From Ulota crispa (Eukaryota > Streptophyta > Bryopsida > Orthotrichales > Orthotrichaceae): a DNA stretch of 64,000 nucleotides. A program made the translations under genes and the position numbers. The notes under the pieces are model-generated. The model saw only the letters and a list, made by a program, of their open reading frames with translations, was not told where the DNA came from and searched no databases. Below are positions 49,877 to 64,000 of this stretch, piece by piece; position 1 is the first letter of the stretch, and every line of letters begins with the position of its first letter. The stretch covers positions 15,764,727-15,828,726 of the forward strand of contig OY987245.1 in assembly GCA_963920765.1 (NCBI GenBank). The letters run 5' to 3'.

Positions 49877-52800
49877 ATGGGCAAGTGGCGTGCACACGTC
49901 GTGGTGGTGCCCATGTTCAGCGCCAATCATGCCACTCCCTTGCTGGACTTCGCGATCCGACTGGCAGGCGCAGCAGTGAAGGTCACGATTCTGAGCGCGG
50001 AGTACCACGTGACCAAGGTGTGGACCGACTCGCTCTACTGGCACTGGGCGCCCAGATTGCGAGCTGCTGGAGACGCCATCGACATCATTGCTGTCAAAGA
50101 TGGCATCTTCGATGGCACTTTGCAAGGGTTTCGGGAAACCGTGATGAACGAATTATCGGAGGCGAAGCTCGTCGCTGCGTTTGGAGCTCACTTGGCCCCA
50201 TTGATGTCGGGAAGTGCCGCCCCTCCGCCGTGCTGCATCGTCTCCGACATGCTCTTGGGGTGGACGCAGACCTTGGCTGCGCAGTTCGACATCCCCCGTT
50301 ACGTTCTGCACACCCAGCCGGCGGCCGACCTGTTGTTTATGCTCCACGTAAGGCCTCCGCTTCACTCCTACATGTCCATGTACTTCTTGAATCGCTGGTT
50401 CAGAGATGCGGTTCTCTGTGTACTTTCTATGTGTATGGACGGCATGAACTACATGGCATGAGTACTCAAAACACCATATTAAGTAATTTGGGTCAAAACG
50501 TTCATTTTGGGACTTTTGAAGGTTTGGGGTGATCACCCCAAATCGAGCTCTAGCGTTTTTTTGGTACACGCGCTCTCACCTGAGAGAAGGAATTTTTGAG
50601 GGAAAAAATCTTAGTGGCTCATACTGAATTTTGATAATTTTGAATCTGGTTTGAGCCTTGAGGTGACTATTTTGGATTGAGGTGGAGTACAAAATGGTAC
50701 CTTTGTTTTTCCCAATTTACCTAATATGGCGTTTCAACTTCGCTATGTAAAACAACATGCTTGAAGTTGGGAAATGGCTTGGGACGTTACTTCCATAACA
50801 AGGCTTTATTGTGACATTGTTTAGCTTGGAGTCTATTCTATCCTCCTCAACCTAAACTGAAGAACATTACACTGTCATAGGAGAACAATTTGATGTAGTG
50901 TATTATAACTTAATGCTAGAGCAACTCTCCATGTCCTTCGTCTTTTTCCCTCTCCGATTCCGATGCACCTGGGAAGTTGGCCCTTAGTAGTCTACAACAA
51001 CTTGCATAACGAGCTTAATATACATAAACGTACGATGTGTTTTCTTGTTTCATAGGTGTACTTTGCATTCGTCCATGCATGTGAACTCCGATTAGTGCAA
51101 CAGAGACAAGCCATGGAAATGAGCCACTTGTGACTGTTTACAGTATTTCCCCTTTGAAAACGTTGGTGTTCTTTGTTCTAGAATAAGCTAAGTATCCTTA
51201 TTCACGTTCTGGCGCTACGCACCTCATGGCAGTGAAGGAGTACTGAGGACATGCCATGGCTCGCAGGTACCGAATTTGATCGCAGCAGGGCGGTTGCCGC
51301 TCACGGACGACAATCGCACAAAGCCGGTGGAGATCCCAGGATTCAAGTACCCAGTCGACCCGTCAAACTTCGTGTCCGACATCGCGGATCCGGATCAAAT
51401 AAAACTAGGCACATACGAGCTGTACCTTCGCATGTCGCGGCGAGCTCGCGAGGCGCCCATGGTTCTCGTGAACACGTTCCGTGAGTTTGAAGAAGACGTG
51501 TTTAAATCATTCGATAACCTTCGGTCTCATGCGACAGAGGACCAGCCGGTGGGTATCCTACCCTTTGCGGCATTTCTCTGAAATAGCTTGGTCCATGGTT
51601 GTCACATTGGACTGCCCGTCTGTCAGATCGCTAGTGCTCCCAACCTGGGGAGCATCCCACAAAGCCTAACAGAGGCATTTAGTCAAAATGCCCTACTCAA
51701 TTGAGCTCATGTCTGTACAAGGTATTCAATTCACAATTGATTTCAAAAAATAATAAAAAATGATAAAAAAACATATTTTGTACATGTTGGTGACACTCAT
51801 TGTCGTCAACATGAAGTCAAAATGTGGGTTTAAACCCACATTGTCTAGTAAAAATGGTACATATGGTAGGTACATATGGTACATAGTAATTTTAGTAATT
51901 TTTTGATTCTTTCTTGTCTTAGCTAAAAATTCTTAAAATGCCCTAAAAAGCAAGAGTGGATGGACATGTCCATTTTGTGTGTCCGCCTATGTTGGCTGAC
52001 AGCCAAATGCTAACCAAAGTAACAACGAGAGACTCTGTACTTGGGTTACTCACCCTGATCTGAACACTTTCCTGAACACTTGCTTGCTTCTTTGGAGAAT
52101 TAGAACGCCTTCCTCGTCACTTGGAGATGTAGGATTCTGTTTCTTGATATTGTTATGGACATCCTTGCTTTCGAAGGCATTGAGAGGAAGAGATGGCCTT
52201 GTGCCTGCAGGTTCCGAAGGTCATCCCAGTTGGGCCTTTGCTTCTTCCAGATGATTTCCCTTCGCCGGGTGCTGTGGCGATCGAGGAGGACCTCGGTGAG
52301 GTGGGTACGAGCTTAATGCAGTGGCTGGACTCGCAAGAGCCCCGCTCGGTGCTGTACATTGCATTTGGAACTGTGGTCAGGAATAAGAAGGAGAGGTTGG
52401 AGGAAATCGCCTTGGCTCTGGAGGAAAGCAAACAACCGTTTGTGTGGCTGGCAGGAACTCTGAACAAGAAACCGAACGAGCCTACACCCCCGCATGTCTC
52501 CGAGTTTCTCCCTCCAGGTCTGAATCATCCTCTGAGGACCCTGAAGCTACCTAGTCATAATGCATCCAGATTTTCGGAGGAACCAAGACGTTTAGTTCAG
52601 AACATTTCATGAACAACTCAAGGACAATGGAAAGTTGGCATTCAATTGATTTCAGTTCATACTTTTTGGACTCTTTTTAAATTAGTCAAGAATTTCTGTT
52701 TAGAAAGATTCACTTATGTCAATGCGTCAATGCCGTTGATGGTAATGGGGGGTGCCAGGGTTTGAAGAGCGCACACGGGGACAGGGCAAAGTTGTTACCG

Positions 52801-54292
52801 TGGTGGTTCCCCAGATCTACATCCTCCGACACCCTGCTTGCGGTGCATACCTTTGCCATTGCGGTTGGAACTCCGTGCTGGAGAGCGTCACCAATGCTGT
52901 GCCGATCATTGCTTGGCCCCAGCAATACGAGCAATTTATGACAGCCAGGTCCCAATCCTTCTCTCCTGTTCCCTGAAAGTCTCTCCCTCTCTTCAGACTT
53001 TGTACTCTTCATCATGTTCCGGTCTCTTCCGGTTTTCCACAAAGTCCATTTGCACTCTCTGCACTTCCTCAGTACCTATACATTCCTCTTCTCATGCCCA
53101 ACTCTGAGTGCACAACTGCCACATGTAAACACACGCCAGAACAGTTGTCCACCCGAGGAAGTGCAATCAGAGAGGGTCGTGAGTGAAAGGTGGTTGTAGG
53201 TTGGCGATATCCATCATCCCGTGCCCATCATCCCTCGTTCATCATCCCTTGCCCATCATCCCTCGTTCATCATCCCTTGCCCATCATCCCTCGTTCATCA
53301 TCCCTTGCCCATCATCCCTCGTTCATCATCCCTTGCCCATCATCCCTCGTTCATCATCCTTTGTCAAGTTAGTGCTGGCATCTTGTTGACGTTGTGACAA
53401 TGCATAGTGTTGCATGTAAAATGTGACATCCATAGGGAGATTATTTGGGTTTACTAGGTAGTAAAATTGCAAAGTGGTAATTATACAGATTTTACCACTT
53501 TTGAATATGGTAATGGTAGTGCGTTTACTACCTAGTAAACCCAAATAATCTCCATGTGATCATAAATAAGTGTTTGACATAACTTGTGCGTTATTCATTT
53601 AATTGGGAAAAGTACTTTCCCAAAACTTATTTTGGGAATATTGAATTTTGCATTTCTGAGAATATTTGACAATTTGAGGTGAGTTTTTTTGATAATCCAT
53701 GGAAGGCATATCATCATTGATGTAAGGTCTTGAAGTAATCATTCATCATAATATTCACTTTGAATTACCTAAAAACTCTTAAAAATGAAATTTTTTTAAG
53801 TCCCAATATGTAAGCTTTTTCCCAATTCAATGAATAACGCGTTTGGGAGCCTCAAGCGTGGTCTAGAAGGCACTGGAGATTTCTACTAGTGATCTGTGAC
53901 ACAAGACTGTCGGTGATAGTGAGAGTACAGAGCGAGTGTGCAGCTGGAAATGAGCTTGAGAGTTTGGAGAGAGGATGGAGGATGTGATGCTAGAGAAGCG
54001 GGTGTTGGAGAGAGCGTGATGAGAGAATGGGACTGACAAAGCAGGTGGAGGGAGTGGGGGCAACAGGTACCTGGTGGATATAGCAAAGGTGGCGGTGGAG
54101 CTGGTGGAGGAGATGAGGGGCCTCGTGCGCAATGAAGAGATCCAGAGGGTAGTGCGCCTGGTGATGCACGAAGCTGAAGGTGCAGCGTTGCGAGCTCGAG
54201 CGGCAGAATGGAAGCAAAGTGCCGCGCAATATGCGCACTCCAATCCTCACTTGGACGCGTTCGTTGCTGGACTTTGTGGACTTTGCGGATAA
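49877..54292 (+). CDS. Family-1 UDP-glycosyltransferase (491 aa, five exons), inverted paralogue
   Basis: Exons 49877-50347, 51267-51548, 52211-52517, 52759-52948, 54067-54292; GT-AG junctions, 492 codons. It starts MGKWRAHVVVVPMFSANHAT with the catalytic His in ANHA. It shares exon structure and most sequence with 38856-43114 (PSPG part HPACGAYLCHCGWNSVLESV, IIAWPQQYEQ; first PSPG residue again Val). C-terminal exon: LVRNEEIQRVVRLVMHEAEG to LDAFVAGLCGLCG. The stop TAA is made from the TA target site and first A of a family-D MITE at 54292. Introns are larger than in the paralogue because of MITEs at 50469, 53436 and 53581 and a minisatellite at 53221. The acceptor substrate is unknown. Confidence 0.9.
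50469..50734 (+). mobile_element. MITE family F (266 bp) in glycosyltransferase intron 1
   Basis: AAACACCATATTAAGTAATT on the left mirrors AATTTACCTAATATGGCGTTT (21 bp less one) on the right. It contains the palindrome GGGGTGATCACCCC at 50526-50539 and the shared core CTCACCTGAGAGAAGGAATT. It is absent from the paralogue's intron 1. Confidence 0.8.
53221..53365. repeat. 28-bp minisatellite, about five copies, in glycosyltransferase intron 4
   Basis: The unit is GCCCATCATCCCTCG followed by TTCATCATCCCTT, repeated nearly perfectly. The minus-strand paralogue has a single diverged unit at the same intron position (about 39410-39440 in reverse). The long Pro/Ser/His frames across it are artefacts. 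Confidence 0.9.
53436..53553. mobile_element. 118-bp MITE with 30-bp perfect inverted ends, in intron 4
   Basis: GGAGATTATTTGGGTTTACT plus AGGTAGTAAA on the left, exact complement on the right ending AAATAATCTCC. The loop is AT-rich. The paralogue's intron lacks it. Confidence 0.9.
53581..53844. mobile_element. MITE, family F-like, in intron 4
   Basis: TGCGTTATTCATTTAATTGG on the left and the complement of CCAATTCAATGAATAACGCG on the right. The interior matches 13877-14132 (TTTCCCAAAACTTATTTTGG, AAGGTCTTGAAG). It is absent from the paralogue. Confidence 0.75.
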
Positions 54293-55025
54293 GGTAGGAA
54301 CACCCGTAAGAGTTAGTATTCCCATAACTTTCACCTCTAAAATCTTTGAAAATCTTTAGAAGTAAATAGATGTAATTACAAGGATGTATAACATATAAGG
54401 GAATTGATATGTGTATCACACCCTTTCAACTATTGTATCACACCTCTAGAGTGAATTTCAGATTTCTACTATCAAAAAGCTGAATTTCAGAATTTGGAAT
54501 TCAGATTTGGACTTGGAGACCTTGATTTAGTCTAGTTTCATAAAAAGGTTTTAGTCAAACAATACCCAATGAAAAAGCTTATCTTTTTTTATAAGTAAAA
54601 GTAAAAGTAATATTTTCTCCCCTACTTGAACTTTGCCATTGGGTGTTATTCAATTACAATGTTTTTATGTGGTTTAAGACTAAATGACTGTCTCTAAGTC
54701 CAAATTTGAATTCCAAATCCTCAAATTCAGCTTTTTGATGGTAGAAATCTAAAATTTATCTTGGGGTGTGGTACAGTAGTTGAAAGGGTGTGGTACACGT
54801 ATCAATGCCCAACATATAAACATGAAACCTTAGTGTTGGTTATGGGTACAATGGCAATTTGTTCTTTAAAAATTCACAACCTATTCTCACAATATCCAAA
54901 TAATACATTTGAAAGTGCAAACTCATTATTTTTGTGTTGCTGACAAGATCCTATAATTTACTAGATGTATTAATAGTCATCATGTTAAAAACCCTAAAAC
55001 TAGCCCTTATGGGTGTTCCTACCCT
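54292..55025. mobile_element. TA-flanked MITE, family D, split by a family-A MITE
   Basis: Ends AGGTAGGAACACCC and the complement of GGGTGTTCCTACCCT, with TA at 54290-54291 and 55026-55027. It is interrupted at 54399-54810. Outer parts align with 49264-49578. It sits on the stop codon of the plus-strand glycosyltransferase, so it forms the start of the 3' UTR. Confidence 0.85.
54399..54810. mobile_element. Palindromic MITE, family A (412 bp), perfect 9-bp target duplication
   Basis: GGGAATTGATATGTGTATCA on the left mirrors TGGTACACGTATCAATGCCC on the right. It is flanked by identical AACATATAA at 54390-54398 and 54811-54819, within the family-D MITE. This copy fixes the target duplication length for family A. 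Confidence 0.9.
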
Positions 55026-55381
55026 TAAGGACCAAGGAATCTTGGTTCTACTCAATTCTGTGCACATCTTGGACGGTGGTTCATTTCAAGGATATGTGAC
55101 CAAAAGAGTTGAATTGTGTTTTAGTCTTGTACATGGTCTTGATCAAGAGTCAGTCGCTTGATGGATTGCATAATCTTTTTGTAGTTCTTATCATTGCAAG
55201 AACAGATTATTTGTGCTATGAATCATTTCGTTTAACAATTTTACAATGAATGATTGATATGAATTATAAGTTTTGGAATTGTGAGTTTAAATGGGTTGGT
55301 AGTTTTTATGATTAGTTTGTTTTCCAAGTTCCAAAAGTAGAAAAAGCATTTGTAGAAAGAAAATTTACGTCATATAATTAG
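55026..55381. other. Short AT-rich intergenic stretch
   Basis: I see no gene, repeat or regulatory feature between the two mobile elements. Confidence 0.6.
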
Positions 55382-57085
55382 GGGAATTGATATGTGCATA
55401 TCGGGGTTCATACATGCACACCCACCGGGGGTCCATACATGCACACCCACCGGGGGTCCATACATGCACACCCACCGGGGGTCCATACATGCACACCCAC
55501 CGGGGGTCCATACATGCACACCCACCGGGGGTCCATACATGCACACCCACCGGGGGTCCATACATGCACACCCACCGGGGGTCCATACATGCACACCCAC
55601 CGGGGGTCCATACATGCACACCCACCGGGGGTCCATACATGCACACCCACCGGGGGTCCATACATGCACACCCACCGGGGGTCCATACATGCACACCCAC
55701 CGGGGGTCCATACATGCACACCCACCGGGGGTCCATACATGCACACCCACCGGGGGTCCATACATGCACACCCACCGGGGGTCCATACATGCACACCCAC
55801 CGGGGGTCCATACATGCACACCCACCGGGGGTCCATACATGCACACCCACCGGGGGTCCATACATGCACACCCACCGGGGGTCCATACATGCACACCCAC
55901 CGGGGGTCCATACATGCACACCCACCGGGGGTCCATACATGCACACCCACCGGGGGTCCATACATGCACACCCACCGGGGGTCCATACATGCACACCCAC
56001 CGGGGGTCCATACATGCACACCCACCGGGGGTCCATACATGCACACCCACCGGGGGTCCATACATGCACACCCACCGGGGGTCCATACATGCACACCCAC
56101 CGGGGGTCCATACATGCACACCCACCGGGGGTCCATACATGCACACCCACCGGGGGTCCATACATGCACACCCACCGGGGGTCCATACATGCACACCCAC
56201 CGGGGGTCCATACATGCACACCCACCGGGGGTCCATACATGCACACCCACCGGGGGTCCATACATGCACACCCACCGGGGGTCCATACATGCACACCCAC
56301 CGGGGGTCCATACATGCACACCCACCGGGGGTCCATACATGCACACCCACCGGGGGTCCATACATGCACACCCACCGGGGGTCCATACATGCACACCCAC
56401 CGGGGGTCCATACATGCACACCCACCGGGGGTCCATACATGCACACCCACCGGGGGTCCATACATGCACACCCACCGGGGGTCCATACATGCACACCCAC
56501 CGGGGGTCCATACATGCACACCCACCGGGGGTCCATACATGCACACCCACCGGGGGTCCATACATGCACACCCACCGGGGGTCCATACATGCACACCCAC
56601 CGGGGGTCCATACATGCACACCCACCGGGGGTCCATACATGCACACCCACCGGGGGTCCATACATGCACACCCACCGGGGGTCCATACATGCACACCCAC
56701 CGGGGGTCCATACATGCACACCCACCGGGGGTAAATTTTAGATGCCATCAAAAAATTGAATTTGAGAATTTTGAATTCAAATTTGGACTCAAAGACTATG
56801 ATTTAGTCTAGAACTATATAAAAGGTTGCAATTAACAACACCCAATGGAAAAGGTTAGCTAGGGGGAAAAGTATTACTTTTACTTTTTATTTGTAAAAAA
56901 AAGTTAGCCTTTTCATTGAATGTTCAATTGTAATTTTTATTATGGTTATAGACAAAATCATGGTCTCAAAGTCCAAATTTGAATTCAAAATTCTCAAATT
57001 CAACTTTTTGATGGTAGAAATCTATATTTTACCCCCTAAGGGGGTGTGCATGTATCAACCCTCCAATGTGCACATATCATTTCCC
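55382..57085. mobile_element. Palindromic MITE, family A, greatly enlarged by an internal minisatellite
   Basis: Left end GGGAATTGATATGTGCATAT and right end complement GGGAAATGATATGTGCACAT. Right of the array the inner arm, loop and returning arm match 2598-3004 (GAATTTGAGAATTTTGAATT, CCCAATGGAAAAGG). Without the array it would be about 400 bp. Confidence 0.85.
55427..56726. repeat. 52 identical tandem copies of a 25-bp unit
   Basis: The unit is GGGGGTCCATACATG followed by CACACCCACC. 1,300 bp is exactly 52 units, with one 24-bp variant unit just before (55403-55426, GGGGTTCATACATG). By eye every unit is identical. The unit derives from the MITE arm itself: the opposite arm holds one complementary copy near 57030-57055 (GGGGGTGTGCATGTATCAAC). 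The unit has no stop codon in any frame, which opens roughly 450-codon frames on both strands; these are not genes. Confidence 0.97.
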
Positions 57086-57247
57086 TAAATTAATAGATGA
57101 TGCAATTCATTTAGTAAAATTATGAATGCTTTATGTATTTGAAAAAGATAGATTGTTTAAGTATTGTGGTAATTTATATTTTATTCAGATTTTCAAAAAA
57201 ATGTGTGTTGAAACTTGAAAGAGCATTTGAAATATTGAAAGGAAATT

Positions 57248-57653
57248 GGGGAAATTACAAATAGGGGCACAAAAATGAAAAATATTACAAATAGGGGCAC
57301 AGTTTCAAAATAATTTGTAAATTTTTGTAATTTTTTTTGGTTTTGACATTGGTTGATTTAGACATATCACATTAAGTGTTAGCAAACTTCCAAAAAATTT
57401 AGAGGTCTTTCCAAAAATTGTCATCCCATTTACTAAAACTTCTTTATTTAGGCTTCATTTGGAGAGGCCTTTAAGTTTTTTGGAAGCTAGCTAACATTTA
57501 ATGTGATATGTCTACATCAACCAATGTCAAATCCAAAAACATTACAAAAATTTACAAAATATTTTGAAATTGCGCCCCTATTTGTAATTATTTTGAAACT
57601 GTTCCCCTATTTGTAATATTCTTCATTTTTGTTCCCCTATTTGTGATTTCCCT
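57248..57653. mobile_element. Foldback MITE, family C (406 bp), perfect 9-bp target duplication
   Basis: GGGGAAATTACAAATAGGGG on the left and CCCCTATTTGTGATTTCCCT on the right, flanked by identical AAGGAAATT at 57239-57247 and 57654-57662. The arms contain tandem ATTACAAATAGGGGCAC motifs and pair through TTGGTTGATTTAGACATATC. It is non-coding and probably Mutator-like. A second copy starts at 63568. Confidence 0.9.
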
Positions 57654-57662
57654 AAGGAAATT

Positions 57663-63567: not shown

Positions 63568-64000
63568 GGGAAAATTACAAATAGGGGCATGAAAATGTAA
63601 AATATTACAAATAAGGGCCAAGTTTCAAAATATTACAAATAGGGGCACATTTTCAAAAAAAATCGTGATTTTTTGTAATTTTTTTTTGGTTTGGACATTG
63701 ATTGATTTAGATTCATCACATAAAATGTTAGCTAACTTCCAAAAAAATTAAAGTTTCCAAAGATCTCCATTCACTTTACAAAAATTTCTTTATTTAAGCT
63801 TGATTTGGAGAGACTTTTTAAGTTTTTTAGAAACTAGCTAACACTTAGTGTGATATGTTTAGATCAACCAAAGTCCAAACCAAAAAAATTACAAAAATTA
63901 TATATTTTTAAAAATTGTGCCTTTATTTGAATATATTTTGAAACTACGTCCCTATATGTAATATTTTATAGTTTCATATCTCCATTTGGACTTTTTCATT
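63568..64000. mobile_element. Foldback MITE, family C (runs off the window)
   Basis: GGGAAAATTACAAATAGGGG start, repeated ATTACAAATA motifs, central GATTTGGAGAG and the returning arm (GTGTGATATG, TCAACCAAAGTCC) match 57248-57653. The final inverted end lies beyond 64000. Confidence 0.85.

Follow-up and report, generated by a model that had tools for sequence, protein, structure and literature searches.

How does a run of identical short repeats come to fill one arm of a palindromic transposable element? The question is raised by a locus in Ulota crispa, in a stretch of 64,000 nucleotides that was analysed as a whole (the window; bases 15764727-15828726 of contig C4). A preliminary description of this DNA had reported exactly 52 identical 25-bp repeats at 55427-56726, grown from one arm of a palindromic MITE. 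An exact periodicity count across the window bore out the number in the assembly, with 52 consecutive 25-bp units at these positions, every one exact, and Tandem Repeats Finder reported the same array (55403-56732; 53.2 copies, 99% matches, 0% indels). The longest run with exact periodicity of 25 extends from 55409 to 56732 (1,324 bp) and is not a product of chance. In its natural register, the array of about 1.3 kb consists of 53 units arranged head-to-tail, one variant and 52 identical copies, and the unit is of minisatellite size.

A genome-wide check of the unit, which the preliminary description had proposed, was conducted on 274.8 Mb in 157 contigs. Allowing up to two mismatches, 53 matches were recovered (52 exact, one with a single mismatch), all of them inside the window array, and a control search with the reversed pattern gave 0 matches. 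The array is homogeneous and tandem on the kilobase scale, as satellite DNA is, but in the genome search its unit occupies a single locus and not many; the idea that it is a genome-wide satellite was rejected, as all matches fall in one array. Six open reading frames of 446-474 amino acids, one per frame, span the array (55365-56811) because the 25-bp unit lacks a stop triplet in every frame. A protein-coding array was accordingly rejected, the reading frames being explained by the stop-free unit and not by genes.

The element that carries the array, at 55381-57085, is palindromic, and the array occupies its left arm. Complementarity between the inner arms, at 56745-56833 and 56926-57014, is 85% across 89 nt. 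The preliminary description had taken the unit to be a changed copy of the subterminal arm, present once and inverted in the other arm near 57030-57055, and had called the rest of the element diverged. Both points stood: the right arm contains a single subterminal motif of 27 bp at 57032-57058, related but not identical to the 25-bp unit and sharing ATACATGCACACC with it, where most of the listed family ends have ATATTTG or ATATATG. Divergence is evident in the arm complementarity and in a target-site duplication (TSD) that has decayed to 5 of 8 matching positions, the two remnants matching more closely if one indel is allowed. Coordinates of these features are collected in Table 1.

Table 1. 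Features of the array-bearing element and related copies (positions are those of the window; L numbers denote loci elsewhere in the genome).
Feature	Position	Strand	Basis or remark
Second, unexpanded family copy, 412 bp	54399..54810	.	Perfect 9-bp flanking repeat AACATATAA
Left target-site-duplication remnant TATAATTA	55373..55380	.	5/8 match to 57086-57093 by eye
Left terminal motif M1 GGGGAATTGATATGTGCA and its spacer	55381..55406	+	Matches family end GGGAATTGATATGTGCACA
Outermost 25-bp unit, one base different from the others	55407..55431	+	Unit comparison, genome search (1 mismatch)
52 identical 25-bp units TCCATACATGCACACCCACCGGGGG	55432..56731	+	Same run as 55427-56726, in another register
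Left arm, inner part	56732..56833	+	Inverted repeat
Short element centre between the arms, 92 nt	56834..56925	.	Inverted repeat
Right arm, inner part	56926..57031	-	Inverted repeat
Single subterminal M2 and inner spacer, right arm TTGATACATGCACACCCCCTTAGGGGG	57032..57058	-	Counterpart of the array unit, not expanded
Element end, with right M1 and spacer	57059..57085	-	Family end comparison
Right target-site-duplication remnant TAAATTAA	57086..57093	.	TSD comparison
Array-bearing elements with flanking 8-mers matching at 7 or 8 of 8	L024, L032, L074, L075, L076, L077, L078, L081, L086

No changes were found in the 1,324 bp of exact periodicity, which by the rule of three, applied by hand, places a 95% upper limit of about 0.23% on divergence among the units. 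Set against the 15% difference between the arms, this suggests that the array, if the assembly is right, expanded or was homogenised long after the element formed.

Several neighbouring features of the window were also recorded. A second palindromic element, belonging to another family, lies at 57248-57653 between perfect 9-bp flanking repeats AAGGAAATT (57239-57247 and 57654-57662). It carries its own terminal motif ATTACAAATAGGGGCA in tandem, with two copies in one arm and three in the other, the latter with one or two changes per copy, and so presents the same architecture in another family. Another copy of that family, at about 63570-63997, has three motif copies in its left arm, one of them with two changes. 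A separate 28-bp tandem repeat (53211-53363; 5.4 copies, 98% matches) is located about 0.6 kb beyond a fragment that matches UDP-glycosyltransferase at the cut-off (52193-52612), and two MFS gene pieces are also present in the window.

To place the host element within a family, its right arm was used in a genome search; 40 of the 2,205 first-look candidates were scored, and 46 matches were listed. Unexpanded elements are mostly about 370-445 bp long, with arms of roughly at least 130 bp. The neighbouring copy in the window, whose 9-bp flanking repeats lie at 54390-54398 and 54811-54819, shows inverted repeat over 51 + 80 nt. Target-site duplications were assessed for 48 locus ids; once one duplicate and the six ids that had no end pair (L017, L037, L039, L042, L082, L085) were set aside, 41 elements remained, among which a few with mispaired ends (e.g., L023, L033, L040) were scored as misses. 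An 8-bp flanking repeat within one mismatch was found for 26 of the 41, compared to a mean of 2.4 and a maximum of 8 after shuffling, and 8 bp was the sole length from 5 to 11 to exceed its own shuffled maximum. The elements are thus MITEs, being short, non-coding and high in copy number, with inverted repeats and a TSD, and they are of the foldback (type 2) kind, with long TIRs that contain 2 to 54 motifs per arm.

TSD length appears compatible with either the hAT or the Mutator superfamily. An 8-bp TSD is the hAT length, which the 9-bp case does not fit; the features given for MULEs in PMC5225508 are a TSD of 8-10 bp and long TIRs, and here the TSD is mostly 8 bp, with one window copy matching at 9 of 9. 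The long arms and the 9-bp case would favour Mutator. Among 54 matches to PF10551 in the genome, 16 were compared with the listed family ends. One of these, a MULE domain at C1:14482664 (in C1:14481033-14482966), lies 1.6 kb from a family end, a proximity with a chance of about 0.10. A second family end was not found for this domain, which may represent a candidate autonomous partner. For hAT, one-sided flanks of about 1.5 kb at 8 of the 39 PF05699 matches contained no end with fewer than 6 mismatches in 19 bases, and none of the seven matches compared on C1 and C2 was within 20 kb of a listed family end. We noticed no publication on this MITE family in the literature searched.

The arms of this family follow a common order. 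Read inward, an arm begins with the terminal motif M1, GGGAATTGATATGTGCACA, followed by a short spacer (s1), the subterminal motif M2, such as TTGATATTTGCACACC, an inner spacer (s2), and then TAAATTATAGATTTCTACCATC; M1 and M2 are tandem versions of a motif of about 22 bp. An exact pattern for M1 with a second core returned 869 matches (437 and 432 per strand), while the control returned 0. The two-copy tandem motif is therefore the normal state of the family ends.

When a third core was added to the M1 pattern, 49 matches were obtained on contigs C1 to C10 (control, 0), so that arms with at least three motif copies make up 5.6% (49/869) of the exact ends. As two matches on C10 face each other in L095, the 49 arms come from at most 48 elements. 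A pattern of three close cores in which M1 was not required gave 1,246 matches (control, 0). On the whole of C1 this pattern detected 11 separate arrays, of which 3 were among the 7 C1 rows of the M1 pattern, and both array counts are therefore lower bounds. A capture-recapture estimate by hand, rough because the two patterns are not independent, would put the number of arrays on C1 at about 23, which corresponds, after scaling by length, to roughly 150 genome-wide. Arrays of this kind, with other units, are accordingly present in dozens of family members, which goes beyond the preliminary description, and an event unique to the window locus was rejected on these grounds.

Forty arrays at 39 loci were parsed into units of 19-25 bp, with 3 to 54 motifs each. 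Excluded from this set were L042 (three 22-bp units with no MITE arms seen), a three-motif end in L023, and an array in the right arm of L099 that the parser had not detected, its cores reading CACGC; reverse-complement shadows of L099 and L101 were removed by hand, reducing 42 arrays to 40. The window array is the longest of the set, with 54 motifs counting M1, and at a unit identity of 0.998 it is nearly pure. A score of 1.0 was reached by nine shorter arrays, which have at most 15 motifs. The 40 arrays have 37 distinct modal units, the only ones in common being those of the two arms of L095, of L076 and L085, and of L103 and L105. Mean unit identity was 0.956 within arrays (31 with enough units) versus 0.788 between arrays (780 pairs).

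Spacers provided a further comparison. The terminal spacer was the same as the modal array spacer in 26 of the 40 arrays and differed from it in 14, versus agreement in 51 of 1,560 cross-array pairs. Because 20 of these arrays had been hand-picked from the 49 rows, with a bias to neat repeats, the spacer test was redone on all 49. The first gap was identical to the second in 16 of 49 rows (not identical in 33) versus 5 of 2,352 cross-row pairs, and the two were within one mismatch in 31 of 49 rows versus 51 of 2,352 pairs. Among the arms with three motifs, seven of nine had equal first and second spacers; in four of these seven (L098, L100, L104, L109) the order was M1-s1-M2-s1-M2-s2 with M2-type cores, which is what one misalignment of M1 with M2 would be expected to leave behind. 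The second core was of the M1 type in L106, L107 and L114, and L074 and the left arm of L095 fell outside the pattern. Extra copies thus occur in the same place and register in many arms, nearly every array has its own unit, and new spacers often copy the spacer of the same arm.

Individual loci add to this picture. The two arms of L099 have each expanded, and their units differ. Both arms of L095 (C10:15025300-15026010) are also expanded, to 3 and 6 motifs, and have private variants in common, which suggests copying between the arms of one palindrome. In L076, a pair of variants reappears ten units later and shows growth by blocks at small scale.

At the upper end of the size range, which begins with arms of three motifs, is a block of about 21 kb. 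This related array of 22-bp units on C6 (C6:14627388-14648653, edges in L115 and L116; about 21.3 kb between the edges) runs at its right edge into a decayed element terminus ending CATATCAATTCCC; no family arm was seen in the 488 bases read to the left of it. Its main unit has 686 exact copies genome-wide, 685 of them on one strand, and among the 100 matches listed all are inside the array, the continuity of which rests on motif matches, nearly unit-by-unit rows over the first 3 kb, and the total count. An offset of exactly 4,143 bp was shared by 13 pairs among 90 matches listed. Several offsets above 300 bp recur, this one the most frequently, and the spacing suggests multi-kilobase block duplication.

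Repeated, independent birth of arrays in place is the simplest reading of these results. Overall, we consider it probable that the window minisatellite was born in one arm of a foldback-type, non-coding MITE, in which the M1-M2 pair seeds duplication in place and blocks then enlarge the array. Seeding by the resident pair is well supported, and the enzymatic route of growth is one that we infer: the M1-M2 direct repeat would misalign during replication slippage, unequal exchange or break repair, the misalignment would duplicate one unit in place, and longer arrays would grow and homogenise via block duplication. In the window copy, a duplicated segment of M2 plus inner spacer would have grown to 53 units, and expansion was probably so recent, or homogenisation so strong, that just one unit, the outermost, departs from the others. 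Every unit carries the motif that may serve as the binding site of the element's transposase. Against the explanation, the window array is atypical in copying s2 and not the terminal spacer, the terminal and modal spacers differ in 14 of the 40 arrays, and the first two gaps are not identical in 33 of the 49 rows. Its register is the rarer one, in which the modal spacer is s2 and the duplicated segment, M2 plus the inner spacer, measures 25 bp; an s2-type modal spacer was present in only 3 of the 40 arrays (the window array, L075 and L079). CGGGG(G)T lies on both sides of the 25-bp segment and is a plausible site of misalignment, so this particular array may owe its register to a G run.

The role of the G run bears on an alternative put forward in the preliminary description, in which units would fold at the self-pairing ACCC...GGGT motif or form G structures, stall replication and so expand. 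The window unit has a G5 run and forms the longest of the 40 arrays, the CGGGG(G)T repeat borders its duplicated segment, and copy number was weakly correlated with one-unit hairpin energy (rho -0.33, p 0.04) and GC content (rho 0.34, p 0.03) in a series of six uncorrected rank tests. In the same series three-unit energy was borderline (p 0.051), there was no correlation with unit length (p 0.10), and, against the alternative, none with fold z-score (p 0.35) or G-run length (p 0.21). Arrays L101, L095, L077, L081, L110 and L113 contain G runs of only 1-2 bases, and such features are therefore not needed for an array to arise. As a general cause the proposal did not hold up; we regard it as improbable, and the M1-M2 direct repeat is the better-supported seed. 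Slightly less improbable, yet still unlikely in our judgement, is growth coupled to transposition, in which the transposase would cut or bind internal motifs, copy-back gap repair would add units, and extra sites would possibly be favoured, as in the binding-site advantage scenario that PMC4079207 reports for Tetris and Galileo. The unit does copy the terminal or subterminal motif of the element, and the flanking 8-mers match at 7-8 of 8 positions in 9 of 16 array-bearing elements with paired ends (Table 1). The remaining 7 of 16, however, match at 3-6 of 8; no transposase was linked to the family in the hAT flanks or MULE domains compared; an array of about 21 kb would be unlikely to serve as a working end; and the finding of 37 distinct modal units in 40 arrays indicates that arrays are rarely carried on to new insertions. 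For L076/L085 and L103/L105, each a pair of different loci with one modal unit between them, transposition may have spread an array that was already formed.

These shared units are also what speaks for the capture of a pre-existing satellite by the MITE and its subsequent spread via transposition, a route proposed for miDNA4 in PMC12628747. Three findings count against capture: the repeated sequence is the end motif of the element itself, the window unit is confined to a single locus, and spacers in the arrays often match the same arm. Of the readings weighed we give it the least credence. Hardly more credible is an assembly artefact, in which the number of units or their perfect identity would be a product of consensus or gap filling. 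In principle, identity this complete across 1,324 bp invites suspicion, but the first unit of the window array has its own variant, and many separate arrays have private units, edge degeneration (L040) or internal variants (L076, L111), which argues that the arrays in the assembly are real.

Systems of this kind are already known, in the form of foldback elements with variable terminal tandem repeats and of satellites derived from transposable elements, as Tetris, Muta1 and the MITE-derived satellites that have been reviewed, Xstir among them, attest in the sources cited here. Tetris, which according to PMC4079207 made a satellite from TIR repeats in Drosophila virilis, is likewise non-autonomous, with TIR tandem repeats (TIR-220) that share a stretch with the terminal domain and vary in copy number; 8-10 bp TSDs and arrays of up to 66 copies, a satellite size, are also described for it. 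The Tetris repeat is about 220 bp and constitutes one repeat family, whereas units here measure 19-25 bp and nearly every array has a separate one. Muta1 of Aedes aegypti, a MULE that PMC5225508 calls a type 2 foldback element, resembles the present family in its TSDs of 8 or 9 bp and in TIRs (145 bp) that combine a terminal motif with short subterminal tandem repeats, and Muta1 and related MULEs have derivatives with variable repeat number. It differs in having 12-bp repeats, nine copies when intact and a known transposase; the present family has two copies in its base state and expands differently from locus to locus, up to kilobases. The path from MITE to tandem array to satellite is shared with Xstir/Xmix and miDNA4 of Xenopus, where, as reported in PMC12628747 and PMC9659126, Xstir arose from internal or TIR sequence of a MITE and miDNA4 by repeat capture, in contrast to the present family, in which a resident two-copy seed has apparently given birth to arrays on many separate occasions. 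BrickBuilt of Porphyromonas gingivalis has a 23-bp tandem repeat without spacers inside a MITE (PMC4596501), but is bacterial, with 19 occurrences in the strain described. The pineapple MITEs of PMC8449440, inserted into TA microsatellites, are not alike.

The feature that appears to be new is how many seemingly separate births one seed has given rise to; in the literature searched we found no family with so many apparently separate arrays, almost all with a unit of their own, arising from one resident two-copy motif. A stronger claim can be framed only tentatively, as we think it doubtful: that a single MITE family serves as a nursery of satellites across the genome, in which the two-copy terminal motif found in hundreds of arms converts independently in about 1 arm in 20, transposition or repair may drive copy number, and the window locus is hypermutable at present. 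If that were true, arrays with their own units would span the range from three copies to a 21-kb satellite, and copy number could be driven by the element's transposition or repair cycle, beyond passive slippage.

The known examples of satellites from transposable elements, as the sources describe them, were reconstructed from few arrays with one repeat family in common. Replicate births with separate labels allow rates, registers, mode of growth and homogenisation to be compared, and they make the start of a tandem repeat testable, in that one can ask whether a resident two-copy motif is sufficient and whether transposition is a driver. For annotation, minisatellites of 19-25 bp in this genome may be MITE arms. 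Taken together, the same kind of growth, with other unit sequences, is seen at dozens of relatives, so that within one genome the stages by which satellite-like DNA is born can be traced in order.
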